Shown here: one piece after another, positions 2 to 24,477 of the stretch
Numbering within the stretch: position 1 is the stretch's first letter
How the letters are laid out: each line of letters opens with the position of its first letter
Origin: Draconibacterium orientale
Lineage (GTDB): Bacteria; Bacteroidota; Bacteroidia; Bacteroidales; FEN-979
DNA: 37,582 nt
Reading direction: 5' to 3'
NCBI GenBank assembly: GCA_020719165.1
Contig: DYQT01000001.1
Location: 45,781 to 83,362, forward strand
Notes under the pieces: generated by a model
Seen by the model: only the letters and a program-made list of their open reading frames with translations
What the model was told of the DNA's origin: nothing
Databases searched by the model: none
Program-made: the position numbers and the translations under genes

Positions 2-2305
2 GTGATGGATGCCCACAACTGTCCGATGATCGAAACCTTCACCGTGAACGAAAATCCGGCACTTTCTATCAGTCTTGTTGACAAGAGTAATGCTCTCTGT
101 CATACCAGCGCTGATGGTTGGATTCAGATTAGCGTTGCAGGAGGTCTTACCAGCTACTCCTACTTGTGGAACAATGGTCAAACAGATGCAAGGGCAACAG
201 GCCTTACTGCAGGTACTTACACCGTAGTTGTTACTGATGCCGGAACGTGTACAGCAACAGACAGTTGGTCAATTACAGCTCCTTCTGAATTAACTGTAAC
301 TGTACCGAGTACGACCATTAAATGCTACAGCTATTCCGATGGAACGCTTACTGCCATTGCAAACGGTGGTGTAACTGCCTACAACTATCTCTGGAATAAC
401 GGTTTAACTACTTCGACCATAACCGGTCTATCTGCAGGTACTTATTTGGTAACTGTTACAGACTTTAACAGCTGTAAAGCTTATGCCGAAGGAACTGTTA
501 ACCAGCCTGACGGGTGGTCTATAGGTCTGGGAGGAGATTCCACTGTTTGCTGTAACGCACTTGGAGTGGAAGAATATTCTGCGAGCATAATTCCAGGTAG
601 CTTCCTCGGCTTCAAGCCAAATTCACAGACACCTTGTCTGGAGTCGGACATTACCTACGAATGGGTTGTTATCGGAGGTTCAATTACCTCTGGCTGGAAC
701 ACATCGGGAATTACCGTTGATTGGGATTGCTGTACACAAGGTTCCGTTACTGTGACGGCTACCAGGTGCGATGGCTGTATGTTGTCGAAAACACTAATTG
801 TGGCTGTCAGTCTGCCACCAGCTCCTGTTATTACAGGTCCTGTTACTGTTCTTGCCAACACCGATACTACTTACTGCACTCCTAACTTCCCCAATCATCT
901 CTATACCTGGACGGTTGTAGGCGGTTCGGTTACTTCAGGACAAGGTACAAGTTGCATCACTGTGATGTGGGGACCATTCCCACCGTGCGGATGCGGCATC
1001 GTTACTGTTTGTGAAACAGATCTTGCCACCGGCTGCACCGGATGTACCTCTATGAACATCACCATTCTACCTGTAATTGTTGGCAACCAGAATATCGAGG
1101 GTACCGTATATTACAAGAGTGGTTTGCAATTCCCATATAACTTTGCAATCAATGGAGTCACCATTAAATTACGAGATCCTTCTACAGGAATTATCGTTGC
1201 AACTACTGTTTCAGCTCCGAACATGAACGAGCCGTTATACACGGGTGATCCAGGCTATTTCGCCTTTACCAATGTACCTTCTGGCACCTATCAGCTTGAA
1301 AGCTCATTCAACGGAACCTGGGGCGGCAACAACGCAACTGACGCGCTTCTTGTACAGTTATACGTTTCCAACAGCACGATGTACCCATTTGAAAGCGATC
1401 TGCAGAAAATTGCAGGCGATGTCAATGCAAGTCTTACCTGGAGCGGTTTGGATGCTTTATACATCAAACTGCGCACCGTTGGCTCGATTACTTCATATCC
1501 TGCCGGCGATTGGAAATTTGACACTCCAAGCGTAGCAGTTCCTACTTCAGGAACCCATAATATCATGGGTATCTGTGTTGGTGACGTAAACGGTTCGTAC
1601 ATTGCCTCCGGATTAAAGGAAGCCTCCTTTATGACAGTTAATGACGATGCCGTACAAACCATCCCAGTTAACCAATCGTTTAATTACGACATCAAGAGCA
1701 GTGCTATTGCTGACTTGGGCGCTATGACTTTGTTCATGGGATACGATCAAAACCGTTTTGAAATCGAAAGCGTAAATACTTCTCTCGAAGGAATGAAATA
1801 CGTGATCGAAGATGGCAAGATCGCCCTCGCCTGGTCGGATACAAGACCTCTTTCTGTCACAAACGATGAGCCCATTATCACCCTTACGCTGAATGCGAAA
1901 GAACTGGTATCGGAAGCTACTCAGATCTTCAGCCTTCTCCCAGGTAGTGAATTTGCTGATTCAAAAGCAAACAGGTTTGATAATTTTGATCTGAAAATGT
2001 CAAAGGTTATCACCCCCAACGGCTTGAATGAGTTCAGCATGTTCAATTACCCGAACCCGTTTAAAAACACCACGAATATCGTTTACACACTGCCAGAATC
2101 AGGCAATGTACGCCTTGTACTTACCAACATGTATGGTAAGACCATCCGCGTGCTTGTTGATGAAATGCAGAATGCTGGTTCCCATACTGTAACAGTTAAT
2201 CCTGTAGACAACACTCTTACCCCGGGCGTATACCTGTATAAGATTGAAGTTACCGGAGCTACTGATTCTTACATGAAGGTCAACAAAATGATGTTCACAC
2301 GGTAA
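2..2305 (+). CDS. Secreted multidomain adhesin-like protein (5' truncated by window): SprB-like repeats, PKD/Ig-like regions, X-module-like + dockerin-like region, cohesin-like region, T9SS type A C-terminal sorting domain
   Basis: ORF runs off the left edge. Two repeats of the form 'YLWNNGxTxxxxTGLxAGTYxVxVTDxxxC' are present. Dockerin-like 'GDVNASLTWSGLDALYIKLRTV...GICVGDVNGSY'. C-terminus 'NYPNPFKNTTNIVYTLPESGNVRLVLTNMYGKTIRVLVDE...GVYLYKIEV...KVNKMMFTR' is a typical T9SS sorting tail. Confidence 0.85.
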   Translation: MMDAHNCPMIETFTVNENPALSISLVDKSNALCHTSADGWIQISVAGGLTSYSYLWNNGQTDARATGLTAGTYTVVVTDAGTCTATDSWSITAPSELTVTVPSTTIKCYSYSDGTLTAIANGGVTAYNYLWNNGLTTSTITGLSAGTYLVTVTDFNSCKAYAEGTVNQPDGWSIGLGGDSTVCCNALGVEEYSASIIPGSFLGFKPNSQTPCLESDITYEWVVIGGSITSGWNTSGITVDWDCCTQGSVTVTATRCDGCMLSKTLIVAVSLPPAPVITGPVTVLANTDTTYCTPNFPNHLYTWTVVGGSVTSGQGTSCITVMWGPFPPCGCGIVTVCETDLATGCTGCTSMNITILPVIVGNQNIEGTVYYKSGLQFPYNFAINGVTIKLRDPSTGIIVATTVSAPNMNEPLYTGDPGYFAFTNVPSGTYQLESSFNGTWGGNNATDALLVQLYVSNSTMYPFESDLQKIAGDVNASLTWSGLDALYIKLRTVGSITSYPAGDWKFDTPSVAVPTSGTHNIMGICVGDVNGSYIASGLKEASFMTVNDDAVQTIPVNQSFNYDIKSSAIADLGAMTLFMGYDQNRFEIESVNTSLEGMKYVIEDGKIALAWSDTRPLSVTNDEPIITLTLNAKELVSEATQIFSLLPGSEFADSKANRFDNFDLKMSKVITPNGLNEFSMFNYPNPFKNTTNIVYTLPESGNVRLVLTNMYGKTIRVLVDEMQNAGSHTVTVNPVDNTLTPGVYLYKIEVTGATDSYMKVNKMMFTR
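91..510 (+). repeat. Two tandem SprB-like protein repeats (about 70 aa each) within the first CDS
   Basis: 'SYSYLWNNGQTDARATGLTAGTYTVVVTDAGTCTATDSWSITAPSELTVTV' versus 'AYNYLWNNGLTTSTITGLSAGTYLVTVTDFNSCKAYAEGTVNQPDG'. Boundaries approximate. Confidence 0.75.
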
Positions 2306-2314
2306 ATACCATTT

Positions 2315-2356
2315 GGGAGGAAGACAACTATTTGAATAGTATGTTGTCTTCCCCCC
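2315..2356 (+). terminator. Strong inverted repeat directly after the stop codon; probable terminator or mRNA-stabilising hairpin
   Basis: gggaGGAAGACAAC-tatttgaatagtat-GTTGTCTTCCcccc: perfect 10-bp core stem extended by G:C pairs, 10 nt after the TAA at 2303..2305. The following T-tract is weak. Confidence 0.6.
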
Positions 2357-2380
2357 ATCTTAATCATGCTTAATTTTTAA

Positions 2381-3460
2381 ATGAATATGAATACACTTCG
2401 GATATCAGTAAAAGAGATGAAAAGAGCAGGCTTCGTGCTGCTGTTTTCACTATTTATTGGTATTGCAACGACTGCGCAGGCTCAAACACTAACCATAGGT
2501 TCAGTGTTAGCCTGCGCAGCCCCTGAAGTGTTTGTACCGGTTACCGGGTCCAACCTTGTCGGCATCGGATCAATTACATTGTATATCAGCTTCGATAGTT
2601 CAAAAGTCATTTATCAATCATTAGAGAATATTGATCCGCAACTTAACGGAGTCATCTATTCCCTTAACACATCACCATTTCAACTTGCTATTGTGTGGAC
2701 AAAAGTTACCCCTATTAACTTTTCAGACAAGAAACTTTTTGATATTCACTTTAAATTCAAAGGCGAATCAACCCCGGTTTTCTTCAATGCCGACTGCGAA
2801 ATCTCAAACAGTCAACTTCAAATTCTGCCTGTAAATTATTTAAACGGATCCGTTTATACCGGCCTTTTGCCCGAAATTATTCTCCAGCCCAAAGACACCC
2901 TTGTTAAGCCCTGGGCGCAAACATCCTTTACCATTAGTTCAACAAATTCGCCCGGCTTTGCTTGGAAGGAGAGCACCGATCATGGCCAAACCTGGTCTGA
3001 ATTATCTGATAATGCCGTTTATAAAGGCACCCATTCCCCGCAATTATTGCTCACCTATACTCCTCCCGCATTTAATAAATATCAGTATATTTGCAGTCTG
3101 AACACACAAGATTGTTATACAACCACGCTGCCTGCTACCCTTACCGTTGACACCCTTGCCTCGGTAAACGGTTATGAAGGAGCCAAAATCTTTTTATTGC
3201 AAAATAAACCAAACCCAATACATAATTTTACATTCATTGAATACACACTTCCAGCCAAAGGCAAAGTGTCGCTAAAAATCGTTGACCTTTATGGAAAACT
3301 CATTGCACAACCCGTGACAGAGATTCAAACAAAAGGAACTTACACAATTCGTTTTGATGCATCCGAACTTACTCCAGGCATTTATTTTTACCAACTTCAG
3401 TTTAACAATGAAAATTCAGGCTTCATCGCCTCTCGTAAAATGATAAAGCAGTTAAATTAA
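2381..3460 (+). CDS. Secreted protein: signal peptide, one cohesin-like module, Ig-like region, T9SS type A sorting domain
   Basis: Hydrophobic N-terminus ending '...TTAQAQT'. Cohesin-like 'VPVTGSNLVGIGSITLYISFDSSKVIYQSL...KLFDIHFKFKG'. C-terminus 'LLQNKPNPIHNFTFIEYTLPAKGKVSLKIVDLYGKLIAQPV...PGIYFYQLQF...SRKMIKQ'. Confidence 0.85.
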   Translation: MNMNTLRISVKEMKRAGFVLLFSLFIGIATTAQAQTLTIGSVLACAAPEVFVPVTGSNLVGIGSITLYISFDSSKVIYQSLENIDPQLNGVIYSLNTSPFQLAIVWTKVTPINFSDKKLFDIHFKFKGESTPVFFNADCEISNSQLQILPVNYLNGSVYTGLLPEIILQPKDTLVKPWAQTSFTISSTNSPGFAWKESTDHGQTWSELSDNAVYKGTHSPQLLLTYTPPAFNKYQYICSLNTQDCYTTTLPATLTVDTLASVNGYEGAKIFLLQNKPNPIHNFTFIEYTLPAKGKVSLKIVDLYGKLIAQPVTEIQTKGTYTIRFDASELTPGIYFYQLQFNNENSGFIASRKMIKQLN

Positions 3461-3521
3461 ATATGATAACCAATATTATATACCACTTAGCAAATATTAA
3501 TAACCTTTATACCTCTATCCT

Positions 3522-5702
3522 ATGACAAAAAAATTTACATTGATGATGCTCTTCCTCGTCTTATTGGGAGCATTTGCGCAAAGTCAAACTGTTTCTCTGG
3601 CGCCTGCGGTTATAACCAGCCCCGGAGAAGATGTGATGGTTCCTATGAATGTAACTGGCTTTACCGGTATTGGAGCTATCACTTTTTATGTTCGATTTAA
3701 CCCCGACATCATAACCTATATTGGCACCTACAATCTGGCGAACCCTGCACCAGGAGGGATGTGGTTAAAGGACTTAATTAACGACTCAACGATATCGCTT
3801 GTTTTTACCGCTAATTCTTCATTTGTCACTTTCCCGAACGGGAAATTGCTTGACTTAAAATTCAACTACAAAGGAATGACAGCCAGCCCTTTGAATTTTG
3901 TTGGAGATTGTGAAGTTACTCAGGGACTTACGTTGATTTTCCCAACCTATACCAATGGGTCAGTGGACATGAATAAGGGTCTTGCCCAAAAAGCAACACT
4001 GGCCAATGCGACAGCAGCAACAGGCGGAAATGTTACCATTCCCTTGGAATACACTGCATTGCCAAATGTTGGATCACTAACCCAAAAGATACATTTCGAT
4101 CCAACAAAATTATCTTTTGTCAACTTGATTGGCATCGGTGATCTTGCTTCGGGAACAAACTATAATGTGGACAACAGTGCCGGCATCATTACCATTAGCT
4201 GGTTTACCGTAGCATTAGGCGGGAAAAACATCAATTACAATGTGGCCCCATTCAGCAAATTTTTGCTCAACTTCGTTTACATTGGCAATACAGATGCCTA
4301 TATTGATTTCGTTGGTGGAAGTTTAATTACTACTCCAGTTCCTGCTACCAACATTGCTTTATCCTATTTTGGAGACACTGTTTCGCTCGCTGCCACAACT
4401 GCCAACGCAGTTTTGGGTTCTGTAGCAACTGCGGTGCAAGGAAATGACTTTGAAGTTCCTCTGAATCTATCCGGATTTGATGTAGGAACTACCCAGGCGT
4501 TTACGCTTACCATCCCATTTGATTCACCCAGGTTGACCTTTCTTGGTGTTAAAGCTCCTGCTCCATCAGGCTTAGTAGTAAGCCAGGCTACGGGTACAGT
4601 TACACTTGCCTGGTCAAATGCCAGCGGACCAGATATCAATGGTACTTTTCTAACCCTGAAATTTAAGTATAATGGCATTGGCACTGCCCATGTCAACTTT
4701 GGAAACTCTTGCGTATTTAACACTTACAATGCGGGTATTGTCGGAACTGTTCAGGTAGCCTATACCAGTTCAACCATCACACCCACCCTTGCGCCAGCCA
4801 ACGCTACCATCGGGTTTGTGCCCGATACACCAGGCCTCCCGGTAGAGGTTCCTGTCAGTTTCTCTGGCCTGCCATTAACCATGGGTGCCGCCGACGTTGT
4901 TATTAGTTATGATGAAAGTAAACTTACCTTTGTTGACGCGATCGATACTAAGTCCGGTACAAATGTACAGTCTGATCCTGCCAATCATAAGGTTTCCATT
5001 ATCTGGACAAATCCGGCCGGAGCCGACATCAATGGTGAGTTTTTAAAACTGCGCTTTAATTACATCAGCGGAACCTGCGGGGCCACAGTGTCATTCATTG
5101 ACGGTTGCCAATTAACTGAATTTGTTCCGCCTGCAACACCCATTGTACCTGCAAACTGGATTGACGGAGGCATTGATCTTAAATACAAAATCAGTGGTAC
5201 CCTTACCTATGACGCCCCTTCAAGTGTTCCACTACCCGGAGCAACCATTCAGATTAAAAGCGGGCCTGAACCTGTTCCACCTGCCATTGCCCCTGTTCCA
5301 GAAGTTCTTTACACAACTACTACTGATGCTGCAGGCCATTATGAAATTTACGTTCCCAACGGAACTTACTACATTTATGCCACCGATACTGCAGCCTGGA
5401 AAGGTGTTGACCTTTCGGATGTGACCAATATCAGAAGATACATCGCACTTTTAACAAGCACCCTCAACTCTCCATTGCGTTTACGCTCGGCCGATGTCAG
5501 CATGGATGGTATTGCCAATATTGATCTGACTGATGTTACAGCTGTTCGCAGAAGAATTGCTCTGTTAACGCCTAACCCCAGTTTTAAAGCAGCGGATTGG
5601 ACGTATGAAAACCCCATGGTCGTGGTTGATTGCGCTGAAGCCCCGGATAAAAATTTCACAGGCTTGTGCTCAGGCGATGTCACCGGATCTTATCCCAACT
5701 AA
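3522..5702 (+). CDS. Secreted protein with four tandem cohesin-like modules, a carboxypeptidase-regulatory/X-module-like domain and a C-terminal dockerin-like module; no T9SS sorting tail
   Basis: Signal peptide 'MTKKFTLMMLFLVLLGAFAQSQT'. Four repeats of the pattern 'VPxxxxGxxxxGxxxxxIxFDxxxLxFxxxxxxxxG...VSIxWxNxxGxDINGxFLxLxFxYxG'. Ends 'LSDVTNIRRYIALL...ADVSMDGIANIDLTDVTAVRRRIALL...FTGLCSGDVTGSYPN' then stop. Confidence 0.85.
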   Translation: MTKKFTLMMLFLVLLGAFAQSQTVSLAPAVITSPGEDVMVPMNVTGFTGIGAITFYVRFNPDIITYIGTYNLANPAPGGMWLKDLINDSTISLVFTANSSFVTFPNGKLLDLKFNYKGMTASPLNFVGDCEVTQGLTLIFPTYTNGSVDMNKGLAQKATLANATAATGGNVTIPLEYTALPNVGSLTQKIHFDPTKLSFVNLIGIGDLASGTNYNVDNSAGIITISWFTVALGGKNINYNVAPFSKFLLNFVYIGNTDAYIDFVGGSLITTPVPATNIALSYFGDTVSLAATTANAVLGSVATAVQGNDFEVPLNLSGFDVGTTQAFTLTIPFDSPRLTFLGVKAPAPSGLVVSQATGTVTLAWSNASGPDINGTFLTLKFKYNGIGTAHVNFGNSCVFNTYNAGIVGTVQVAYTSSTITPTLAPANATIGFVPDTPGLPVEVPVSFSGLPLTMGAADVVISYDESKLTFVDAIDTKSGTNVQSDPANHKVSIIWTNPAGADINGEFLKLRFNYISGTCGATVSFIDGCQLTEFVPPATPIVPANWIDGGIDLKYKISGTLTYDAPSSVPLPGATIQIKSGPEPVPPAIAPVPEVLYTTTTDAAGHYEIYVPNGTYYIYATDTAAWKGVDLSDVTNIRRYIALLTSTLNSPLRLRSADVSMDGIANIDLTDVTAVRRRIALLTPNPSFKAADWTYENPMVVVDCAEAPDKNFTGLCSGDVTGSYPN

Positions 5703-5731
5703 TATTTTTTTAACTGAAAAACAATAACAAT

Positions 5732-7813
5732 ATGAAAAAGATAACAACTTTCGCAGTAATACCCTTGTTAGCGCTGTTTTTGGTTCTGTGGAGCGGAACC
5801 AGCAATGGTCAAACATCGATCTCATTGGGATCAGATCAAACTTCACTAGTAGCAGGTGAAATTGTACTTGTACCGATAATTGTAACCTCGACCTTTGAAT
5901 CTGCTGATATATATATCACATATGACAAAGATGTTTTAACACCTGCGTCTCCTTTTTTTACTGGACTTGATCCGAATTTTGGTATTTTGGCGAATCCGAA
6001 TTACAATACCACAACATCGTCAATTCAGTTTCAAGGAACAGGGATTAATGTGACACTTGATGGATCCACTCCAATTATAACATTGCGTTTTATCTATAAT
6101 GGAGGCTCCTCCTCACTTCATTTGAGAAAGTCTCCGGACGCCATTCCAAGGTGCTTAATAATTGATGAGATTGGTTCTCCGGTCGAACCTTACACATTTT
6201 CAGATTTAATGGTGAATGGAACTGGATTTTTAGAACTAAAATCGATTGAAACAGGAACAACTCTGTTATGGAAAAATTCTACGACCTGGAGATTTATGGA
6301 CGGGACACCAGTCCCCAATGGATGTATACCCACTGGCATTGTTAACACTACTATCACCGGAGCTCTTGTAACAATTGATTCACCTGTTCCACCAGCCACT
6401 GCGCCACAAATCAGAACAAAAAATTTGACAATATATCCTGCTGGCAAACTTACATTAAATGCATCCCGGTCCTTGGCTGTTACAGGCAATTTGCTCATCC
6501 AAAGTGATGCGACAAGCACGGGTTCTTTTGTCGATTTGGGAACCACGACTGTTACCGGCTCAACATCTGTTGAACGTTATACTACCGGTACCTGGGATGG
6601 TAACTGGCCCCCGGCTACGATTACCTGGCATTATGTTTCATCTCCGGTTTCGGGAGGTACCATCAGCTCGTATGAAGGTTCGCTGCTGAATGAATGGAAA
6701 GAGGACACTCTTTCCACCGGATACTGGAAACCGCTCACTTTACCACTTACCAAGCCTTTGGTAGTAAACAAAGGTTACTCTGCTGCTACAACCACCAACA
6801 AGGTAATCACCTTTACCGGAGGCACGCTGAACACCGGAAACCGGACTATCACCGGCTTAACGAACACAGGGATGTCGGATGCCAGAGGATTTAACCTCGT
6901 TGGAAACGCCTACCCCTCGGCAGTTATTTGGGATGGTGCAGTTACAAGAACCAATGTGGATGCCGCCGCCTATTTTTATGACGGAGTAACTAATAACTAT
7001 ATACCCCACATGACCACCGATGCTGTCAAATACCAGATTCCTGCAGAACAAGGCTTCTTTGTGCACGTAACAACAGGCTCTGCAACTGGTTCAATTACTA
7101 TTCCCAACACCAATCGGGTACATTCAGCAAACGCCTATGTAAAAAGCACCTCCGGCCAGGAATTGATCTTAAAAGCGAATGGCAACAACCTGGAAGACAT
7201 GACCTCCATCAGGTTTAACTCGGAAGCAACCGAAGGTTTCGACAGCGAATACGATGCATATAAATTATGGGGCGCCACTACCTCTCCTCAAATATATTCC
7301 ATCGCCCCGGGTGACAACCTCGCCATCAATTCCATTCCTGAGATGGCCGCGCAGACGGTTGTTCCGGTTGGATTCAAGGTGGGCGTAAATGACACCTACA
7401 CCATTACAGCATCAGGATTGGAAACATTCCCCGGAGAAACAGACATCTACCTGGAAGACATTTTCTTAAACAAAACACAGAATTTGAACTTAAACCCTGT
7501 TTATGAGTTTACCGCATCAACTGGCGCCAATGCACACAGGTTTAATATTCGTTTCTCCCCAATATCAGGTTTGGGAGAAACCACCGGTAACAACATCAGG
7601 ATTTATGCGGCGGAGAACACCGTTTATATCAACATCCCGATGGAGTTGCATGGCGAGATTATCGTTTACGACTTGCTTGGCAAAGAGATGAAACATCAAT
7701 CGATTCAGGGAAATTCTCTGAACAGAATTAACCTGAATGTTGAACAAGGTTATTATCTTATTAAAGTTCTTGGTGACAAATCAACTGTTTCAGGAAAAGT
7801 ATTTATCCGATAA
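5732..7813 (+). CDS. Secreted protein: N-terminal cohesin-like module, long Bacteroidetes surface-protein region, T9SS C-terminal sorting domain
   Basis: Signal peptide; 'GSDQTSLVAGEIVLVPIIVTSTFESADIYITYDKDVL...ITLRFIYNG'; C-terminus 'IRIYAAENTVYINIPMELHGEIIVYDLLGKEMKHQSI...GYYLIKVLGDKSTVSGKVFIR'. Confidence 0.8.
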   Translation: MKKITTFAVIPLLALFLVLWSGTSNGQTSISLGSDQTSLVAGEIVLVPIIVTSTFESADIYITYDKDVLTPASPFFTGLDPNFGILANPNYNTTTSSIQFQGTGINVTLDGSTPIITLRFIYNGGSSSLHLRKSPDAIPRCLIIDEIGSPVEPYTFSDLMVNGTGFLELKSIETGTTLLWKNSTTWRFMDGTPVPNGCIPTGIVNTTITGALVTIDSPVPPATAPQIRTKNLTIYPAGKLTLNASRSLAVTGNLLIQSDATSTGSFVDLGTTTVTGSTSVERYTTGTWDGNWPPATITWHYVSSPVSGGTISSYEGSLLNEWKEDTLSTGYWKPLTLPLTKPLVVNKGYSAATTTNKVITFTGGTLNTGNRTITGLTNTGMSDARGFNLVGNAYPSAVIWDGAVTRTNVDAAAYFYDGVTNNYIPHMTTDAVKYQIPAEQGFFVHVTTGSATGSITIPNTNRVHSANAYVKSTSGQELILKANGNNLEDMTSIRFNSEATEGFDSEYDAYKLWGATTSPQIYSIAPGDNLAINSIPEMAAQTVVPVGFKVGVNDTYTITASGLETFPGETDIYLEDIFLNKTQNLNLNPVYEFTASTGANAHRFNIRFSPISGLGETTGNNIRIYAAENTVYINIPMELHGEIIVYDLLGKEMKHQSIQGNSLNRINLNVEQGYYLIKVLGDKSTVSGKVFIR

Positions 7814-15648: not shown

Positions 15649-16057
15649 GCGCCCAGTATTTAAACCCTGTAAAATTAATCACGATTACCAAAGGCAGAAT
15701 TAAAAACTGCAGATAAAACGGATCGGCAAGAGTTGCTGAAACCAATAGTTTCAGCAGAACCATGTTTATTGCATAAGAGGTACAATATACAACAAAGTAC
15801 TTTGGCAGTCTCTTTCGGAATTCCAGCTTTTCCTCCGGCTTAAAAACAAAGGCAAAATTGATTACGTAGGTAAATAAAACGCCAAATATCCATGATATGC
15901 TGAATGAACCCAGATAATGGATTTCAAATAGCCGAAGGCATACAAGGTAAACTATTGTTGAAAGTGCTGCATTGGAGATGCCTACAAGCACATACTTATA
16001 AAATTGCAGGCTGAAGATGTTTTGTTGAACAAGTCTTACAAAGCGGTGTACCTTCAT
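15641..16057 (-). CDS. GtrA family protein (small 4-TM flippase-like)
   Basis: 138 aa; 'FYKYVLVGISNAALSTIVYLVCLRLF...ISWIFGVLFTYVINFAFVFKPEEK...LVIVINFTGFKYWALK' is the GtrA pattern. Confidence 0.85.
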   Translation of the reverse strand: MKVHRFVRLVQQNIFSLQFYKYVLVGISNAALSTIVYLVCLRLFEIHYLGSFSISWIFGVLFTYVINFAFVFKPEEKLEFRKRLPKYFVVYCTSYAINMVLLKLLVSATLADPFYLQFLILPLVIVINFTGFKYWALK

Positions 16058-17880
16058 TTTCTCAATCTGTAATAACTCAACCCGGTGTATTGGTAAAATG
16101 AAGGAAGGATATTTGTAACCTTCTCAAAATAGTAGTCTTGTTTATAAAGGTAGTGGTAATAGGCGCGCAAGAAATTATTAAAATTGTCCTCTGAAATGAA
16201 AATCACATTGTTCATAGCACTGATTTTCTTAAATAATTCGGCGTGATCGTAAGTACCGAACTTAGCCAATAGTTGATCTTGTGTTTCGGGCGCCAGGGAA
16301 AGTTCGATGGTTAAATACACATAACAATTCTTATTCTTGAAATTGATTTCTTTAATCGGATCAGTTGCGTTATGCATTTCCCAACTCCGTAACGTGGTGG
16401 GAATGAAAATTGTATTGCTGAAATTCGAGTTCATGTCATCGAACATCATGTGATTTATTTTCCCAAATGCATCGTAGCGGGATATTGCTTCCTTATTTGC
16501 GCTGGAATATTTCGGAATTGCGGCCAAAGAAACAGCAATGGGGAAAGTTATTAGGAGATACCACAGCTTTTTTTCAAAGTGAAACATGGAAAACAAGTAG
16601 ATCAAGTTTGAAAAAGTAAGTACAACCAGCAACGGATTAAAAATCCGGGCAGGCAACTTCATAAAATAGCTCATCGCAGCAATTACCACGATAAAAAATA
16701 CCTGAAAAAGGAGGTATTTAAGAAATCCGATGTAATTATGCTTAACAGATGTTACAAACCATATGAACACGATAAATAAAAACGCGTAATTCAAGTTAGC
16801 CGCGACTTTATTTTCTGCATTCAAACTATCTAAAAACACGCCAAATTCATCTTTAAATTTCAACTCGTTTCCGCTTGGGATCAGAGGAGATTGTTGAGTT
16901 AGTTTTTTCAGAAAGGGAACCGAGATCACATTATTGTCACTGCAATATCGTGCGTTGACCATTGCGTTGTATGCGATCGTATCATTGATGTTCTGCGGAA
17001 CATAAGCCGCAGCATTTCTGTAATCAATGAGCTGTCTGATGATTTCTGTCTTTTCTAAAAATTCGTTGTTTCGCTGATTATTCCGCTTTGAAATTACATC
17101 GATCGTTGTTATAGCCAGAATGAACATCAACACCGGTAACATAAATTTAAGAAGAAACGGGAAAATATTTTTCTGAAAAACAACAAACAAAACTGCAAAT
17201 ACAAAGCCAAAGGCGAAACCCAGGTATCCTGCATCAAGCCTTGTACAATGGCCAATGACATAGGTTAAAACCGGAAAAATTAAAATCCATTTGTTGCTTT
17301 TCAGAATCTCAGAATTTACATATAATACTCCTAAAAGGATTATGAAGCTTGAAGTTACCAGGATAGAGGGGCGTGTGAAATTAATCCAATAGATATTTTG
17401 AAAATATATCCCAAAACAGAAAGCAATAAAGATCAGGATAATCAAGGGGAAGGCAATTCTGTTTTTCGCTGCTAAATAAAGGGTAATGAAGATATTAAAC
17501 AATGAACCCAAAAGCAGCAAAAACATCGAAAATCCATACCAGCCAATATTCGGGAGGTACTTATAGAGGAAAATGTATAAAGAAATGGTGAATTTATATA
17601 CTGAAACAAAATTATCATACGGCAATGGAGAGGCGAATCCTTTCATGGCCATCACATATCGGGGATCGTCGTTCATTTCGAAATATGAACCGAAGAACTG
17701 ATAGCAAAAAACAAGCACCAGCAATGATAATAAAAACCCAATTAAAGCAACAACTTTAAAATCATATTGTTTTGGCAACAGTTTCTTGTTGCCTGGTGCA
17801 TTCTTTTTTTTAAGAATCGTTGTTTTTTTTTCGTAAACAGAACTGCGTTGTTTTTTGATATTTGATTTACTCATCTTCAA
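16054..17880 (-). CDS. Large polytopic membrane protein, candidate GT-C-like glycosyltransferase of the Gtr-like cassette
   Basis: About 10 or more hydrophobic helices; 'FEMNDDPRYVMAMKGF' acidic motif after TM1. Stop/start overlap TCAT (16054..16057) with the GtrA gene. Confidence 0.65.
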   Translation of the reverse strand: MKMSKSNIKKQRSSVYEKKTTILKKKNAPGNKKLLPKQYDFKVVALIGFLLSLLVLVFCYQFFGSYFEMNDDPRYVMAMKGFASPLPYDNFVSVYKFTISLYIFLYKYLPNIGWYGFSMFLLLLGSLFNIFITLYLAAKNRIAFPLIILIFIAFCFGIYFQNIYWINFTRPSILVTSSFIILLGVLYVNSEILKSNKWILIFPVLTYVIGHCTRLDAGYLGFAFGFVFAVLFVVFQKNIFPFLLKFMLPVLMFILAITTIDVISKRNNQRNNEFLEKTEIIRQLIDYRNAAAYVPQNINDTIAYNAMVNARYCSDNNVISVPFLKKLTQQSPLIPSGNELKFKDEFGVFLDSLNAENKVAANLNYAFLFIVFIWFVTSVKHNYIGFLKYLLFQVFFIVVIAAMSYFMKLPARIFNPLLVVLTFSNLIYLFSMFHFEKKLWYLLITFPIAVSLAAIPKYSSANKEAISRYDAFGKINHMMFDDMNSNFSNTIFIPTTLRSWEMHNATDPIKEINFKNKNCYVYLTIELSLAPETQDQLLAKFGTYDHAELFKKISAMNNVIFISEDNFNNFLRAYYHYLYKQDYYFEKVTNILPSFYQYTGLSYYRLRK

Positions 17881-17940
17881 AACTGTTTAAGGTTCACTCT
17901 TGGAAATGAAATTTCTATTTTGATAATGGAACTGAGTATT

Positions 17941-18870
17941 TTATTTTGTTGTATAAATATCTTTAATAATGTAATTCGGCTTGTGTTTAACTTCATCATA
18001 AATTCTCCAGATATACTCTCCGATAACCCCCAACATGATCATAAGGAAACCTCCGATGATTAAAAACAGCATCATCAGCGGGGCCCAACCATTGAACGGA
18101 GTTTTGGCAATAAAGTAGGCATGTAAGATGGAAAATGAATAAATGAATCCGGAAAATGCAGTGACAAACCCGATCAGTGACATTAAACGAATCGGGAAAT
18201 AGCTTACATTTAAAAAAGCAGTCATGAAATTACCAAAACGCTTCACGAAATTATATCCGGATTTGCCATGTACTCTCTCTGCTCTGAGGTACGGCAGATA
18301 CTTGATTGTAAAACCAACCCAAAGGATATCTCCCTGGTAAAATCTGTTTTTTTCGGTAAGACTGTTTATTGCATCCATTGCTTTTCTGTCGAGCAAAGCA
18401 AAATCAAAACCGCCGGGTGGAAGTGTTGGCAGGGAGTATCTGAAAAGTTTGTAGGCAATTCGGGAGGTTATTGCCGAGGAGGTACTGTCGCTTCGTGCCT
18501 CCCGGTAATTAATGACAATTTCATTGTTATTTTCCCATTCTTCCAGCATTTTCGCGATCAATTCCGGCGGGTCCTGCAGATCAGCAGAAATATTAATGAC
18601 AGCGTCGCCGGTGGCATATTTCCACCCCGCCAAAATTCCCGCCATTTGACCGAAGTTTCTGGAAAAATTTATCACCTGCACTCCTGAGTCTTTGAGTTGT
18701 ATGGTTTTCAGGATATCCAGAGAATTATCATGGGAGCCATCATTGATAAATATCAGCTCATAAAGGAATGATTCGTTGTATGATTTGATTGTTGAAACAA
18801 GTTTTTCATACAAAATCCCAAGAGAGCCCTCATTATTATATACAGGAATGATAACAGATATTTTTTTCAT
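17941..18870 (-). CDS. Glycosyltransferase family 2 with two C-terminal TM helices (GtrB/DPM1-like polyprenyl-phosphate glycosyltransferase)
   Basis: 'ISVIIPVYNNEGSLGILYEKL...ELIFINDGSHDNSLDIL...NFSRNFGQMAGILAGWKYATGDAVINISADLQDPPELI...' and a TM-containing C-terminus '...GVIGEYIWRIYDEVKHKPNYIIKDI'. Confidence 0.92.
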   Translation of the reverse strand: MKKISVIIPVYNNEGSLGILYEKLVSTIKSYNESFLYELIFINDGSHDNSLDILKTIQLKDSGVQVINFSRNFGQMAGILAGWKYATGDAVINISADLQDPPELIAKMLEEWENNNEIVINYREARSDSTSSAITSRIAYKLFRYSLPTLPPGGFDFALLDRKAMDAINSLTEKNRFYQGDILWVGFTIKYLPYLRAERVHGKSGYNFVKRFGNFMTAFLNVSYFPIRLMSLIGFVTAFSGFIYSFSILHAYFIAKTPFNGWAPLMMLFLIIGGFLMIMLGVIGEYIWRIYDEVKHKPNYIIKDIYTTK

Positions 18871-18899
18871 GGATTGATATTAGCCGGGTAATTTCAATG

Positions 18900-19643
18900 C
18901 TACTCTCCTTTTTCACACATTAAAAAAATGCTTGAACACAGATCAGGGTATTGCTGCCCCAATTGATAACAACCCTCCAAATACTCTGGTGAAATAATAT
19001 CTGTGTTCAACAATTTATCCCACTGGAAATTTGCCAAAGCTTTAAAGAATATTCCCGACCTGTGAATTACCCTGAGGCCAGCAAGTCGCGCATCTCTTTC
19101 AAGCGTGTCAAAGGTATATGTAATCCGATGCCCATGTGCAGCTTCTGCAGGAGTTACTGCCGCATTTTGACTAATCAAGCCCATCTTGACGGCTATTTGC
19201 CGGGAAGGGGCATTGGCATTTGGGCAAACAAGGAAAAACCTGCCATTGTCGGATAACCATTCATCATTGATTCTTTTCAATATTTGAACAGGGTTGTCGA
19301 TGTGCTCCAACACATGGGTTAGAACGATGTTATCATATTTCGTTGGGAGCGCAACAGTTTCAAAAAGTGAATTGACAAATTTGACATTTTCACCAAATTC
19401 CTTTGCCGCTATTTCAATGGCCTGGTCGGATGCCTCAACACAGGTAATATCTTTGAAAAATGGAAGAAGTCTCCTGGTAAAATGACCTCTGAAACTCCCT
19501 AATTCTAAAATATTGCCAGCGTTAAAAAAGGGGAGAAAGGATTTTAACATAAATGGATGCATCACATCAAAATCAAAGCTATAGCCATATTTATGGTCAG
19601 CAGTATCTTGTAATTCTTCGTTGTAGTTTCTCTTGTTAATCAT
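18900..19643 (-). CDS. Class I SAM-dependent methyltransferase
   Basis: 'NILELGSFRGHFTRRLLPFFKDITCVEASDQAIEIA...YDNIVLTHVLEHIDNPVQILKRI'. Confidence 0.88.
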   Translation of the reverse strand: MINKRNYNEELQDTADHKYGYSFDFDVMHPFMLKSFLPFFNAGNILELGSFRGHFTRRLLPFFKDITCVEASDQAIEIAAKEFGENVKFVNSLFETVALPTKYDNIVLTHVLEHIDNPVQILKRINDEWLSDNGRFFLVCPNANAPSRQIAVKMGLISQNAAVTPAEAAHGHRITYTFDTLERDARLAGLRVIHRSGIFFKALANFQWDKLLNTDIISPEYLEGCYQLGQQYPDLCSSIFLMCEKGE

Positions 19644-19690
19644 TGTTCCGGTATTTTTATAATTGAATGTACTTTAAAGCCTGAAATTCA

Positions 19691-20155
19691 TTATTCATTG
19701 AGCGTTGCAAGTTCAATCTTCATAATCAATGTTTTTTCTCTCTTTTCATCAATTGAAAATCCGTATTTTTCATACAGTTTTATGGCAGGGCTGTTTGTGC
19801 TGTTTACCTCCAGCAATACCCGGGAAAAATTGTTTTGAACTGCATGTTTAAAACACATGGTTAATAATTGCGAAGCAATTCCCAGGCCTAAGAACTCACT
19901 GATTACACTAACATTGGTAATAAACACAACATGATTCTGAAAATCATTGAGATAAGCTGCTACCAAACCGATAAGCCTGTTGTTTGCCCATGCTTCAAAG
20001 GTGGTTGATTTCTGGAATATTTTTTTTGAATATTCTTTGATGTCAACGGTTTCAGCCAAATTCGGAATAAAGCTGCTGCTACATTCAAACAGGTGCTGGC
20101 AGATATCATCCTCTGAAGCAATTTTGGTTTCAAATTTGATTTTCTTGTCACTCAT
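19691..20155 (-). CDS. GNAT family N-acetyltransferase
   Basis: 'VFITNVSVISEFLGLGIASQLLTMCFKHAVQNNFSRVLLEVNSTNSPAIKLYEKYGFSID' is the GNAT acetyl-CoA-binding signature. Confidence 0.9.
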   Translation of the reverse strand: MSDKKIKFETKIASEDDICQHLFECSSSFIPNLAETVDIKEYSKKIFQKSTTFEAWANNRLIGLVAAYLNDFQNHVVFITNVSVISEFLGLGIASQLLTMCFKHAVQNNFSRVLLEVNSTNSPAIKLYEKYGFSIDEKREKTLIMKIELATLNE

Positions 20156-20178
20156 ATCACCTTCTAAAAGAAAAAATA

Positions 20179-21135
20179 CTATTGGTCATCCCACACTGCC
20201 AGCCCAAACCCGAAACGGCCAAACTCATTTCCGTTATAGAGCATAAACAACTTATCGTCACAATGAAAAACATGAGGGTAGCAAAGCATATCTGAATCCC
20301 AGTTATCGTTCGAAACTTCAATTCCGGTATTTTTATCGTCTCTGATCCAATGGATCAGGTCGTTGGAATATGCATAGCCAATTCGGTAGGCATTATTCCT
20401 GTTTTTCCGGAAGCCTGCAGCTTGTCTGAAGCAAAAATACATATGGTATTTCCCATTGTGACGGATTACAGTCGGGAGTGCCTGGCATTCATCCGCATCA
20501 AGGCTGTCGGCAATGATCTGCCGGCCGGTTTTATGCCATGAAACACCATTTTCGGAGGTTGCATGGCCGATTTTATATACACGCTGGGGGAAAGCCTCAT
20601 CGGGATGGTCGATCCATCTGAGGCCATAAATGTACCACATATGGTAGGTGGGGCCATATTTCATAACAAACGGATCACCAACCAGAAATGGTTCATTTAC
20701 AGAGGAGGTTAAAACCGGACCATCGCCAATTCTTTTAAAGGTTTGTCCATTGTCGCTGCTAATTGCCAGTCCGATGGAGGTCTCGACAGAAACAGAAACC
20801 CTTCTGCTCCACCCACCGATGTATCCAAGAATTCTGTCATTATCCCGGTAAATATTTAATGGAAAAATGCCATGTTCATCATAACAGCCTAAGGCTCCTA
20901 ATTCAATTACCGTATCGGTAGAGACACCAAGGACTTTTTGAAATCCTTTATCCATGTCGACAAATGATATGTGGCTGAGATATTTTCCCGACTTGTCTTT
21001 TTGACGGGTTGAAAAATAAATTCTAACAAAATCATCGAACATGAGTGTTTGAGGTGACTGAGCAAATTCCACACAACCATTTGATAATTTGTGGTTTGTC
21101 GGGTCAAATATTTTTCCTAATTTCCTCCATGCCAT
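20179..21135 (-). CDS. Five-bladed beta-propeller glycosidase-like protein (GH43/GH130-type superfamily), apparently cytosolic
   Basis: 'DHPDEAFPQRVYKIGHATSENGVSWHKTG...ECQALPTVIRHNGKYHMYFCFR...YRIGYAYSNDLIHWIRDD': propeller-type repeats. No signal peptide. Confidence 0.65.
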   Translation of the reverse strand: MAWRKLGKIFDPTNHKLSNGCVEFAQSPQTLMFDDFVRIYFSTRQKDKSGKYLSHISFVDMDKGFQKVLGVSTDTVIELGALGCYDEHGIFPLNIYRDNDRILGYIGGWSRRVSVSVETSIGLAISSDNGQTFKRIGDGPVLTSSVNEPFLVGDPFVMKYGPTYHMWYIYGLRWIDHPDEAFPQRVYKIGHATSENGVSWHKTGRQIIADSLDADECQALPTVIRHNGKYHMYFCFRQAAGFRKNRNNAYRIGYAYSNDLIHWIRDDKNTGIEVSNDNWDSDMLCYPHVFHCDDKLFMLYNGNEFGRFGFGLAVWDDQ

Positions 21136-21155
21136 AATCCAGTCTCCTTCGATTA

Positions 21156-22115
21156 TTAAAATTCACCCTCTAAACGGGCCAAGCCAAATCCACATCTGCC
21201 CACCTCGTTGCCCAGGTAAAGCATGTAAATATTGCCGTCAAGTTCAAAAACATGGGGATAAGCAATCATCTCAGAATCCCAACCTTCGTCAGAGACATTG
21301 ATTCCAGCTTTTGAATCATCTCTGACCCAGTTGGTCAAATCGGCAGATGATGCATATCCGATGCGATACCCATTCTCTTTTCCTCTGAAATTCAAACTAT
21401 AGCGATAGCAAAAAAACATATGATACATCCCGTTCTGGAAAAACACATCCGGGCTTGCCTGGGCCTCATTTTCTTCAACTCTGGATTCAATGAGGTTCTT
21501 TTCCAACTTGGTCCAGTTGGCTCCATCATCTGAATATGCCATTCTGATTTTATATACCGGTTCAGGATGTCCGTCGTTGGCAACCCATTTCTGGCCAGCT
21601 ATATAAAATAAATACCACCGATCGTTGAATTTCCTGATTTTAGGTCCGCTTAAAATAAAAGGTTCGTTCACGGAATAGGACAAAACAGGTCCTTTTCCTG
21701 CTTTGGTGAATGTGACTCCATTATCGTGGCTTATTGCAAGCCCGATGGCAACATTAAACGGAACAGATTCACACCTGGTCCATCCTCCGTAATAGGCTAA
21801 CACATCATTCCCATTCCGAATCACTGATGTTGGATATATACCGAATTCATCGAAAGTTCCGGGTTCGCCCAACTTTAAGATGGGGTTCGCCGCAATATCT
21901 TTTATTTCGAATAAATTTTGTCTGTTTAAATCAACATAGGCCGTATTGCTGACATATTGCCCATTGCCATCCCGTGGTGGCCGGCATGAGAAATAGACCC
22001 GGACAAATTCATCAAAAATTAACACAGCGGGAGCCTGTGCAAATTCCTGCATCCAGCTTACATTCTTTACCTCTGTTGGATTAAAAACCCTTCCAAGTTT
22101 TTTCCATTTAAACAT
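21156..22115 (-). CDS. Five-bladed beta-propeller glycosidase-like protein, paralog of the adjacent 20179..21135 product
   Basis: Clear residue-by-residue similarity to the neighbour: 'WRKLGKIFDPT'/'WKKLGRVFNPT', 'SVNEPFLV'/'SVNEPFIL', 'KYHMYFCFR'/'MYHMFFCYR', 'YRIGYAYSNDLIHWIRDD'/'YRIGYASSADLTNWVRDD'. Confidence 0.65.
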   Translation of the reverse strand: MFKWKKLGRVFNPTEVKNVSWMQEFAQAPAVLIFDEFVRVYFSCRPPRDGNGQYVSNTAYVDLNRQNLFEIKDIAANPILKLGEPGTFDEFGIYPTSVIRNGNDVLAYYGGWTRCESVPFNVAIGLAISHDNGVTFTKAGKGPVLSYSVNEPFILSGPKIRKFNDRWYLFYIAGQKWVANDGHPEPVYKIRMAYSDDGANWTKLEKNLIESRVEENEAQASPDVFFQNGMYHMFFCYRYSLNFRGKENGYRIGYASSADLTNWVRDDSKAGINVSDEGWDSEMIAYPHVFELDGNIYMLYLGNEVGRCGFGLARLEGEF

Positions 22116-22148
22116 GTTGCAGTTGTATTTGCATGAATTAAGATCTAT

Positions 22149-23348
22149 TTAAACCACATTTACAAAAATATAATTGGTCATTCTGTCAAGATAATAAATC
22201 ATCTCATCCTGGCTAGAGAACCTGAGGATAAATGTACCGAGAGTGTTATTGGATCCATTGAATTTATTCACTTTGTCGCCTGGTTTGATCAGAATATTCT
22301 GTTGAATTATTTTTGGTTTAATTTCATCCGTAATCGTGATACTCCCCACAATGCCATCCCTTTTAGCATGAAGGATATAGGAGGAATAAAACCCTTCGGT
22401 TTCAACCATTTTCAAATCCGAACAGTCTTTCCCAACTGCACTATCCACGGAATATGCAATCAGATCAACCCCTGTAGAGAGTTTTATTACTTCCGGTATC
22501 AGATTTCCGCCGCTTCTCGGTCCAATTTCAAGAATATAAATGTTTGCGTTTTTATCGGTCAGGTATTCAATATTCAGCCCTCCCAGTTTCATATTTAATT
22601 TTGTGAGGATTGATTCAATGATGTCATGCGCCTTTTGCTGAACAGGTTTTTCCTGAATATAGGGAAAGCTAATGCCCATCGGGACATAAGGGTTGCATTC
22701 GATATCGTTGTGCTGATTACCGAAGCACCGGAATGCAAGTTTTCCCTGCCAAACAAAGCCATCGCCATCCATCTCATAAATTGCCTTTTCAATAAAATCT
22801 TCAATGACAACAATTTTTGCCAGAGAAAATGACATCGCATCGTTAAATGATTTTTCAAAATCGACAATGGTGAAATGCTTTGTGACACCTTTGGAACCCG
22901 ATGAGTCGGCCGGTTTAACAATGATTGGATTACACTGAAGCCTTTCGACGGCAAATTGCTGTGCTTCATCCACATTGATAAAAGAGGCAGATACCGGCAC
23001 CAAAAACCCATTATCTTTTAAGAATGTTCGGAACAGGTCTTTTCGTTGGAGGATTTTAACCGATTCATAGGGGTTCCCCGGGAGTGACAATTTTTCGGCA
23101 ACATAGGCGGCTGCAGGCGCTCCGGGATCGGAAGCATAAGAGACAATCCCATCGATTTTTAGCTTTTCTGCAAGTTGCAAAACCTTCTTTTCATCCGTAG
23201 TGCTCACATTGTAGTACTCATCGGAATACTTATGGCCGGGATTATCGGGAAGGTAATCGGCTGTAATCACATGATATCCTGCACTTTTTGCATATTTTAT
23301 AGCAGGAATCTGAAAATGGCTGCCCCCAAGCATGAGAATTTTTTTCAT
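22149..23348 (-). CDS. ATP-grasp domain-containing protein (carboxylate-amine/thiol ligase-like)
   Basis: 'KKILMLGGSHFQIPAIKYAKSAGYHVITADYLPDNPG...NPIIVKPADSSGSKGVTKHF...VIEDFIEKAIYEMDGDGFV...YILEIGPRSGGNLIPE'. Confidence 0.9.
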   Translation of the reverse strand: MKKILMLGGSHFQIPAIKYAKSAGYHVITADYLPDNPGHKYSDEYYNVSTTDEKKVLQLAEKLKIDGIVSYASDPGAPAAAYVAEKLSLPGNPYESVKILQRKDLFRTFLKDNGFLVPVSASFINVDEAQQFAVERLQCNPIIVKPADSSGSKGVTKHFTIVDFEKSFNDAMSFSLAKIVVIEDFIEKAIYEMDGDGFVWQGKLAFRCFGNQHNDIECNPYVPMGISFPYIQEKPVQQKAHDIIESILTKLNMKLGGLNIEYLTDKNANIYILEIGPRSGGNLIPEVIKLSTGVDLIAYSVDSAVGKDCSDLKMVETEGFYSSYILHAKRDGIVGSITITDEIKPKIIQQNILIKPGDKVNKFNGSNNTLGTFILRFSSQDEMIYYLDRMTNYIFVNVV

Positions 23349-23352
23349 CGAA

Positions 23353-24477
23353 TTATTTTCCTGCGGATTTTATTAATTCACAAATTCTTGACACATCGGA
23401 AAGTTCCAGATCGGGGTATATGGGCAGACAAAAAACCTGTTTCGTTTTGAGTTCAGCCACAGGTAAATTAGCCGGATTTGAAGAGGCCAACCCCTTATAA
23501 GTCGGGAATTGGCTAATCAGCGGATAGAAATAACGGCGGCCAAATAATTGATGACTCTTGAGTAAATCATTTAATTCATCCCGGCTAATGCCAAAGTTTT
23601 TTTCGTCAATGAAAACAGGAAAATAAGGATAGTTGTGTTTAACCCCGGGTATTTCATTCTGACAGCTAAGACCCTTAACATCAGCAAGCGATTCTTTATA
23701 CAATTCACAAATTATTTTTCGTTTGGCAATGGCTTGTTCAACATATTTTAACTGCAGAAGTCCAAAGGCAGCTTGTACTTCATTCATTTTAGCATTTATA
23801 CCGGGCGCCACAACTCTTAATTCCCCATCATATCCGAAATTTTTAAGAAAGTCGATGCGTGTTTTTGTTTTCTCATCATGGCAAATGATAGCGCCTCCTT
23901 CGATGGTATTAAAAACCTTTGTAGCATGAAAACTCAGCACAGAGAGATCGCCAAAATTCAACACTGAATTATCGTTGATCTGAACTCCGAAAGCATGGCA
24001 GGCATCATAAATCACCTTTAGCCCATAAGCATCGGCAATTTTTTGGATTTTATCAACCTGGCAGGGATTGCCATATACATGTACCGGCATGATGGCGGTA
24101 GTTTGAGGCGTGATAGCAGCCTCAATTTTTTCGGCATCCAGATTGCAAAAATCAGGTTCGACATCGACAAAAACCGGTTTAATTCCATTCCACCACAAGG
24201 CATGTGTGGTAGCAACAAAACTGAATGGCGTGGTTATCACTTCACCGGTAATTTTTAAAGTTTGTAAAGCTGTTATTAAGGCAAGTGTTCCATTGGAAAA
24301 TAGAGAGATATACTTTACTCCTAAAAAATCGGCAAGCGCTTGTTCAAATTCCTTATGAAAGGGGCCACTATTCGTAAGTATTTTATTATCCCAAATTTGT
24401 TTCAGCAATTCAGTAAATTCATCAAGGGGGGGCAAGAAAGGCTGGGTTACGAATATTGGTTTCATGGACAGTTTCAT
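23353..24477 (-). CDS. DegT/DnrJ/EryC1/StrS family aminotransferase
   Basis: 'FSNGTLALITALQTLKITGEVITTPFSFVATTHALWWNGIKPVFVDVEPDFCNLD...LSVLSFHATKVFNTIEGGAIICHD...GINAKMNEVQAAFGLLQL' includes the PLP-lysine motif. Confidence 0.93.
   Translation of the reverse strand: MKLSMKPIFVTQPFLPPLDEFTELLKQIWDNKILTNSGPFHKEFEQALADFLGVKYISLFSNGTLALITALQTLKITGEVITTPFSFVATTHALWWNGIKPVFVDVEPDFCNLDAEKIEAAITPQTTAIMPVHVYGNPCQVDKIQKIADAYGLKVIYDACHAFGVQINDNSVLNFGDLSVLSFHATKVFNTIEGGAIICHDEKTKTRIDFLKNFGYDGELRVVAPGINAKMNEVQAAFGLLQLKYVEQAIAKRKIICELYKESLADVKGLSCQNEIPGVKHNYPYFPVFIDEKNFGISRDELNDLLKSHQLFGRRYFYPLISQFPTYKGLASSNPANLPVAELKTKQVFCLPIYPDLELSDVSRICELIKSAGK

Follow-up and report, generated by a model that had tools for sequence, protein, structure and literature searches.

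The DNA analysed here (hereafter the window) is a 37,582-nucleotide stretch of the Draconibacterium orientale assembly GCA_020719165.1 (contig DYQT01000001.1, forward-strand positions 45,781 to 83,362; G000:C394:45781-83362 in our own numbering), taken from a genome that is 81% complete. It opens with four consecutive plus-strand genes (genes 1 to 4) whose products are built from cohesin and dockerin modules, X modules that directly precede the dockerins, and C-terminal sorting domains (CTDs) of the type IX secretion system (T9SS; Table 1). We consider it reasonably probable that these proteins make up a non-cellulosomal, T9SS-exported cohesin-dockerin surface scaffold, with dockerins whose first calcium loop is split between the two ends of the module.

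Module composition of the four-gene cluster

All four open reading frames (ORFs) listed in an initial annotation of the window were present, and its tally of one, one, four and one cohesins along genes 1 to 4 held up, with Pfam supporting genes 2 and 3, hhalign genes 1 and 4, and Foldseek gene 1. The same is true of the dockerins that it had placed in two genes (1 and 3) and the T9SS domains in three (1, 2 and 4). Its first gene stood only in part: the ORF is real, but the annotated segment is merely the 3′ end of a SprB-repeat-rich ORF of 1,854 codons that starts 3.3 kb upstream of the window and is interrupted by an assembly gap, and the GTG at base 2 is not its start. A run of N lies directly before window base 2, inside the SprB repeats, and this upstream gap rules out a whole 767-aa gene beginning at that GTG. 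Near-identical repeat blocks flank the gap on both sides, so the number of SprB repeats in gene 1 is not fixed by the assembly.

The identity of the cohesins is directly supported by profile matches. Family PF00963 was found above its curated cut-off in genes 2 and 3, and a combined cohesin profile of genes 2, 3 and 4 matched solved cohesins (E=1.2e-7). The Pfam scan of the window proteins gave no cohesin match in genes 1 and 4, and both were also missed by HMMER in default mode with a profile of the cohesin type found in genes 2 and 3 (CohA); profile-profile comparison, by contrast, matched both modules (CohB in gene 1, CohG4 in gene 4) to the Pfam-supported cohesins of the same genome (hhalign values in Table 1). 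For gene 1 we additionally modelled the dockerin together with the module that follows it (DOC-CohB) in AlphaFold, using 27 sequences (best of five models: predicted local distance difference test (pLDDT) 86, predicted template modelling score (pTM) 0.83). The 43 best PDB matches of this model in Foldseek were all cohesins or cohesin-like proteins (best E=2.6e-8, template modelling (TM) score up to 0.70), with the non-cellulosomal Archaeoglobus cohesin 2xdh and the cohesin-like 2jh2 of Clostridium perfringens among the top ones. A generic immunoglobulin (Ig) or fibronectin type III (FN3) identity is ruled out for this module, as the first non-cohesin match came at rank 44. By its modelled fold, the gene 1 module is a cohesin; those of genes 2 to 4 are cohesins as judged from their profiles, the AlphaFold evidence being confined to gene 1.

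Scanned as whole proteins, gene 3 gave a sub-threshold Pfam match to a dockerin (E=0.035, 14.8 bits; the cut-off of Dockerin_1, PF00404, is 22.9 bits) and gene 1 gave no Pfam match for its dockerin. When family members were used as isolated modules, Dockerin_1 was matched by 43 of 44 (best 1.2e-9); the gene 1 module reached 16.3 bits, below the cut-off, and other members exceeded it with 28.0-34.6 bits. An AlphaFold model of the gene 1 dockerin built with 44 aligned relatives (pLDDT 88, pTM 0.79) consists of three helices and a short strand pair, with the C-terminal motif coming last. Its 23 best PDB matches in Foldseek were all dockerins (top probability 1.00, target-normalised TM score up to 0.72), and on this model the module is a dockerin by fold. 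Both gene 1 modules thus fall among solved cohesins and dockerins and not among unrelated Ig or FN3 folds, in line with the initial annotation. Chance similarity of the cohesin and dockerin modules is ruled out by the profile and fold matches combined.

The arrangement recalls the type II X-module-dockerin dyads of clostridia (4u3s), in which a beta-sandwich X module likewise stands directly before the dockerin, and the X module of the clostridial scaffoldin also turned up as a weak profile hit (4u3s_B, 4wi0_B). Here, however, the dockerin follows an X module of CarboxypepD_reg-like type and carries a C-terminal extension ending in GDVNGSY.

With respect to export, the T9SS tails of genes 1, 2 and 4 are of type A and exceed the NCBIfam cut-off (Table 1), whereas a TIGR04183/PF18962-type scan found no T9SS CTD in gene 3, whose N terminus is signal-peptide-like. 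SprA, the T9SS translocon, is encoded in the same genome. Genes 1, 2 and 4 therefore combine the two attributes of a type A substrate, i.e., a CTD and the machinery in the genome, and gene 3 does not.

Table 1. Coordinates of the four genes, their modules and proposed half-loops in the window.
Feature	Position	Strand	Evidence or remark
Gene 1 (3′ part): SprB repeats - X module - dockerin - CohB (cohesin-like) - T9SS type A CTD	2..2305	+	
Gene 1 X module (CarboxypepD_reg/prealbumin-like), before dockerin	1091..1312	+	PF13620 31.2 bits, just below cut-off 32.3
Gene 1 dockerin, predicted split loop 1	1313..1600	+	AlphaFold (AF2) and Foldseek; PF00404 matches in family
Gene 1 loop 1, C-terminal half GNNATD	1325..1342	+	its D invariant, 109/109 sequences
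Gene 1 loop 2, complete 12-residue calcium loop DVNASLTWSGLD	1418..1453	+	alignment of family
Gene 1 C-terminal GDVNGSY, proposed N-terminal half of calcium loop 1	1580..1600	+	conservation, join test, reciprocity test
Gene 1 cohesin-like module CohB	1622..2011	+	hhalign 98.0% to CohA; Foldseek
Gene 1 T9SS type A sorting domain	2033..2302	+	TIGR04183 3e-9, 36.7 bits (cut-off 23)
RNA hairpin between genes 1 and 2, strong	2315..2356	+	without U tract
Gene 2: signal-peptide-like N terminus - one CohA cohesin - T9SS CTD	2381..3460	+	
Gene 2 cohesin CohA	2489..2860	+	PF00963 E=6.7e-7, above cut-off
Gene 2 T9SS CTD	3188..3457	+	TIGR04183 1.3e-8, 34.7 bits (cut-off 23)
Gene 3: four-cohesin scaffoldin, C-terminal X module and dockerin, without T9SS CTD	3522..5702	+	
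Gene 3 four CohA cohesins	3591-3971, 3993-4391, 4407-4784, 4803-5183 (overall 3591..5183)	+	PF00963 E=5e-26, 4 stretches
Gene 3 X module, CarboxypepD_reg-like	5187..5390	+	PF13620 1.7e-6, 28.8 bits, below cut-off 32.3
Gene 3 C-terminal dockerin, predicted split loop 1	5391..5693	+	sub-threshold PF00404; aligns with other copies of its own genome
Gene 3 GDVTGSY, proposed N-terminal half of loop 1	5673..5693	+	join test
Gene 4: divergent cohesin CohG4 - large region without Pfam family - T9SS CTD	5732..7813	+	
Gene 4 cohesin-like module CohG4	5816..6220	+	hhalign 98.4% to CohA
Gene 4 T9SS CTD	7592..7810	+	TIGR04183 26.1 bits (cut-off 23)

Conservation of the cluster and company of its dockerins

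Relatives were sought with an alignment of the four X-dockerin copies of the window's genome as query and one-genome-per-species contigs as target. We found 203 related places and analysed the best 80, which are almost all from uncultured Bacteroidota, many of them from lake metagenomes. The order of the window, i.e., a SprB-repeat protein ending in X-DOC-CohB-CTD, CohA-CTD in one or two genes, the 4xCohA-X-DOC scaffoldin and a gene with CohG4, is kept in eight related Bacteroidales metagenome-assembled genomes (loci L022, L023, L024, L025, L029, L034, L037 and L038). All eight gene 3 orthologues share its CTD-less dockerin ending, so the missing CTD is not a local error. In three variant loci (L026, L027 and L028) DOC-CohB-CTD replaces the bare dockerin at the end of the scaffoldin, and the fourth gene is CohA-CTD.

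Dockerins and cohesins also keep company outside this arrangement. Of 97 usable cases, 42 have a cohesin gene immediately downstream of the dockerin gene, and on the upstream side this holds for 13 of 54. Split-loop dockerins occur on three contigs of the window's genome (C394, which holds the window, C330 and C494), and each of these also carries cohesin genes; on C330 and C494, too, dockerin and cohesin genes adjoin. Across 297 Bacteroidota genomes, a Pfam dockerin was found in 106 and a Pfam cohesin in 98 (both in 71, dockerin only in 35, cohesin only in 27, neither in 164), a co-occurrence with an odds ratio of 12.3 (p=3e-20, uncorrected for phylogeny). Two related proteins without Pfam family, both cut by contig ends (L014:8878-9783 and L013:16071-18293), adjoin CohA genes as well; a split dockerin forms the end of the C494 copy and may also form that of the C421 copy.

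Cohesins are Ig-like beta-sandwiches, and many Bacteroidota surface proteins chain such modules. Given also the SprB repeats, one could read the locus as adhesin repeats only, with cohesins as generic beta-sandwich spacers and the dockerin as a calcium-stabilised cap, and with no mutual recognition between them. We regard this as improbable, since dockerin and cohesin genes often adjoin and co-occur and the modelled folds match cohesins and dockerins in particular.

For the proteins ending in DOC-CohB-CTD, an intramolecular clasp has to be taken seriously as an alternative, though on the whole it is unlikely. Here the dockerin would pack on the CohB that follows it, and the two would act as one fixed cassette at the C terminus, keeping the protein stable for T9SS export and recruiting nothing else. 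After the dockerin comes either almost nothing or a CohB-CTD tail, and the regularity of the latter fits such a cassette: CohB directly follows the dockerin in 87 of 113 dockerin ORFs, tail lengths are tightly clustered at about 216-256 aa, and the pTM of the DOC-CohB model is high for two independently tumbling domains. However, just one of the five models was that confident (mean pLDDT 85.9 against 74.6-76.5), with linker residues 106-109 below 50; moreover, bare C-terminal dockerins without CohB exist, and a clasp leaves unexplained the CohA genes that adjoin dockerin genes.

The scaffold reading must also be set against a degradative, cellulosome-like complex, in which dockerin-bearing enzymes dock on the scaffoldin. 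Five dockerin proteins were found in the window's genome, the other parts of which are SprB repeats, kelch/beta-helix, the four-cohesin scaffoldin, or regions without Pfam family. Within this genome (81% complete), Pfam detected no enzyme domain in any of the five, and no enzyme domain or carbohydrate-binding module (CBM) in these or in the gene 3 scaffoldin. Ca. Stygibacter (Cloacimonadota), according to the excerpted text of PMC8542988, has a cellulosome-like complex that resembles the present locus in its tandem-cohesin scaffoldin with a C-terminal sorting domain and in its dockerin proteins outside the Firmicutes; in the same excerpt its dockerins are, by contrast, on enzymes (GH18, GH57, peptidases), its scaffoldin has CBMs, and no split loop is described. 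In other Bacteroidota, relatives do join the split dockerin to the C-terminal end of enzymes, or close to that end, namely GH16 (L080:8072-9274), polysaccharide deacetylase (L076:3-1373), endonuclease I (L049:3359-5344) and M14 carboxypeptidase (L087:4486-6579). Although we consider a degradative complex at this locus very improbable, these enzymes mean that the module is not purely structural, and that "general surface-assembly tag" describes it more aptly than "adhesin-only part". The non-degradative scaffold put forward in the initial annotation consequently agrees with the five dockerin proteins of this genome but does not extend to relatives that join the same dockerin to enzymes.

Calcium loop 1 of the dockerins

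A canonical dockerin loop has 12 residues (DxNxDGxxNxxD), with calcium ligands from position 1 to 12. In the family described here loop 2 is contiguous (ADVNxSxxVNxxD), while loop 1 starts at about position 7 (WGGVNxTD), its first half being absent from the N terminus. Nearly all modules end in GDVNGSY, which is among their best-conserved parts (G 109, D 108, V 105, N 104, S 105 and Y 98 of 109 sequences; the terminal D of loop 1 and that of loop 2 are both 109/109). Only one of the two contiguous 12-residue calcium loops of a type I dockerin was hence found, and because loop 1 lacks its N-terminal first half and a matching half lies at the C terminus, we refer to the module as a dockerin-fold variant and not as canonical type I. 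Compared with type I dockerins (PF00404; 4uyp, 4dh2, 5m2o), it shares the two loop-helix repeats, with TM scores to 0.72, but differs in the missing first half of loop 1 and in 35-40 extra residues after the last helix, which end in the missing motif. No solved chain aligned to this extension by sequence.

The sequence complementarity of the two half-loops was observed in a join test, in which the C-terminal motif was moved in silico to stand directly before GVNxTD, with scrambled motifs as controls. The joined sequence is a gap-free 12-residue loop, and its Dockerin_1 match starts at profile position 2. Scores rose from 17.6 to 24.9 bits for gene 1 (scrambled 17.0), from 20.7 to 27.7 bits for gene 3 (scrambled 20.2) and from 30.6 to 39.0 bits for a third dockerin (scrambled 30.1), meaning that both window dockerins clear the PF00404 cut-off once the half-loop stands in front. 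This result is one of sequence complementarity and not of closure.

A reciprocal pattern emerged among 75 dockerins sampled across the phylum. Specifically, the downstream GDVN-type motif was missing in 44 of 45 dockerins with a complete loop 1 and present in 28 of 30 with an incomplete one (Fisher 4e-17, for sequences that are not independent and a classification rule settled after they had been seen). The two apparent exceptions among the latter read GDVK (L106) and GDVQ (L167), so that GDV accompanies an incomplete loop 1 in 30 of 30. Dockerins of both classes occur inside the same families (f15, f29 and f33), and the pattern is thus not confined to one lineage. The window's genome yielded a single canonical dockerin (i.e., one whose loop 1 is complete). 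It lies close to the N terminus of a protein of 1,058 aa (L016:116-3292, contig C104) encoded in a phage-tail locus, where a neighbouring gene matches the baseplate hub family phrog_4930 (8.8e-62).

We infer that loop 1 of this Bacteroidota-type dockerin would be formed by WGGVNxTD from the start of the module and GDVNGSY from its end. As the halves lie at opposite ends, both ends must meet for the calcium site, and the closed loop would then be expected to bind calcium. In the open-access literature we found no account of a natural dockerin that is split or permuted, nor of this T9SS-cohesin cluster, an absence that is weak evidence; from its sequence, the split-loop dockerin appears to be an undescribed form. 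If the split loop is real, it represents a new dockerin architecture that standard profiles under-call; neither window dockerin reaches the Pfam cut-off, and the number of such systems is therefore probably underestimated.

Predicted assembly at the cell surface

In the scaffold that we favour, the products of genes 1, 2 and 4 would exit through the T9SS by means of their C-terminal signals and display their cohesins, a surface location to which the CTDs and SprA point. Gene 1, as a large SprB-repeat protein, would provide the main adhesin-like body and gene 3 the scaffoldin, with four cohesins and a C-terminal X-dockerin. The gene 3 dockerin is predicted to plug into a cohesin partner that has a CTD (gene 2 or 4), and the gene 3 cohesins to capture dockerin proteins (gene 1, the kelch/beta-helix protein of C330 and the C494 proteins), and the outcome would be a cross-linked surface layer. 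More tentative is a broader proposal, for which the case seems to us nearly but not quite balanced: that a large Bacteroidota dockerin family is split at loop 1, its opposite-end halves joined via the C-terminal extension, and that CTD-less proteins ending in the module reach the surface docked onto cohesin partners that the T9SS exports.

Several observations weigh against these proposals. Gene 3 has no CTD of its own to account for its export, and for many dockerin genes the stretch examined contains no neighbouring cohesin gene. Dockerins of the G064/G158 type often have NxD before loop 1, which suggests that their loop 1 may be partly complete, with a partial native half-loop beside the C-terminal motif, and the motif has been lost from the L038 copy of gene 3, which reads GNVLG in place of GDVNGS. 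Finally, both the reciprocity and the co-occurrence statistics ignore shared ancestry.

Non-cellulosomal cohesins and dockerins are already known, including in anaerobic methanotrophic (ANME) archaea (PMC9012536); such modules from Archaeoglobus fulgidus, ANME archaea and C. perfringens are the subject of a review by Peer et al. 2009, as cited in PMC9012536. The window resembles these cases in having cohesin and dockerin folds outside cellulose degradation and differs from them in its T9SS tails, SprB repeats, conserved cluster with a four-cohesin scaffoldin, and apparent split loop 1. It offers a conserved, testable candidate for a cohesin-dockerin surface system in Gram-negative T9SS users, from which new docking pairs may be obtained, and its CTD-less scaffoldin makes piggy-back T9SS export a concrete question.

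Other features of the window lie between or beyond the scaffold genes. The region of the hairpin between genes 1 and 2 (2300-2385) has a folding energy of -26.3 kcal/mol (z=-4.6), and 0 of 200 shuffles were equally stable; the hairpin may act as a terminator, an attenuator or a stabiliser. On the minus strand, 16054-24477 contains matches to glycosyltransferase, methyltransferase, ATP-grasp, DegT aminotransferase and GH130/GH32-like families, and this cluster probably comprises surface polysaccharide genes near the scaffold genes. Further along, 27040-30741 encodes a 1,233-aa fusion of 2Fe-2S, pyridine-nucleotide oxidoreductase, ferredoxin and molybdopterin oxidoreductase domains.

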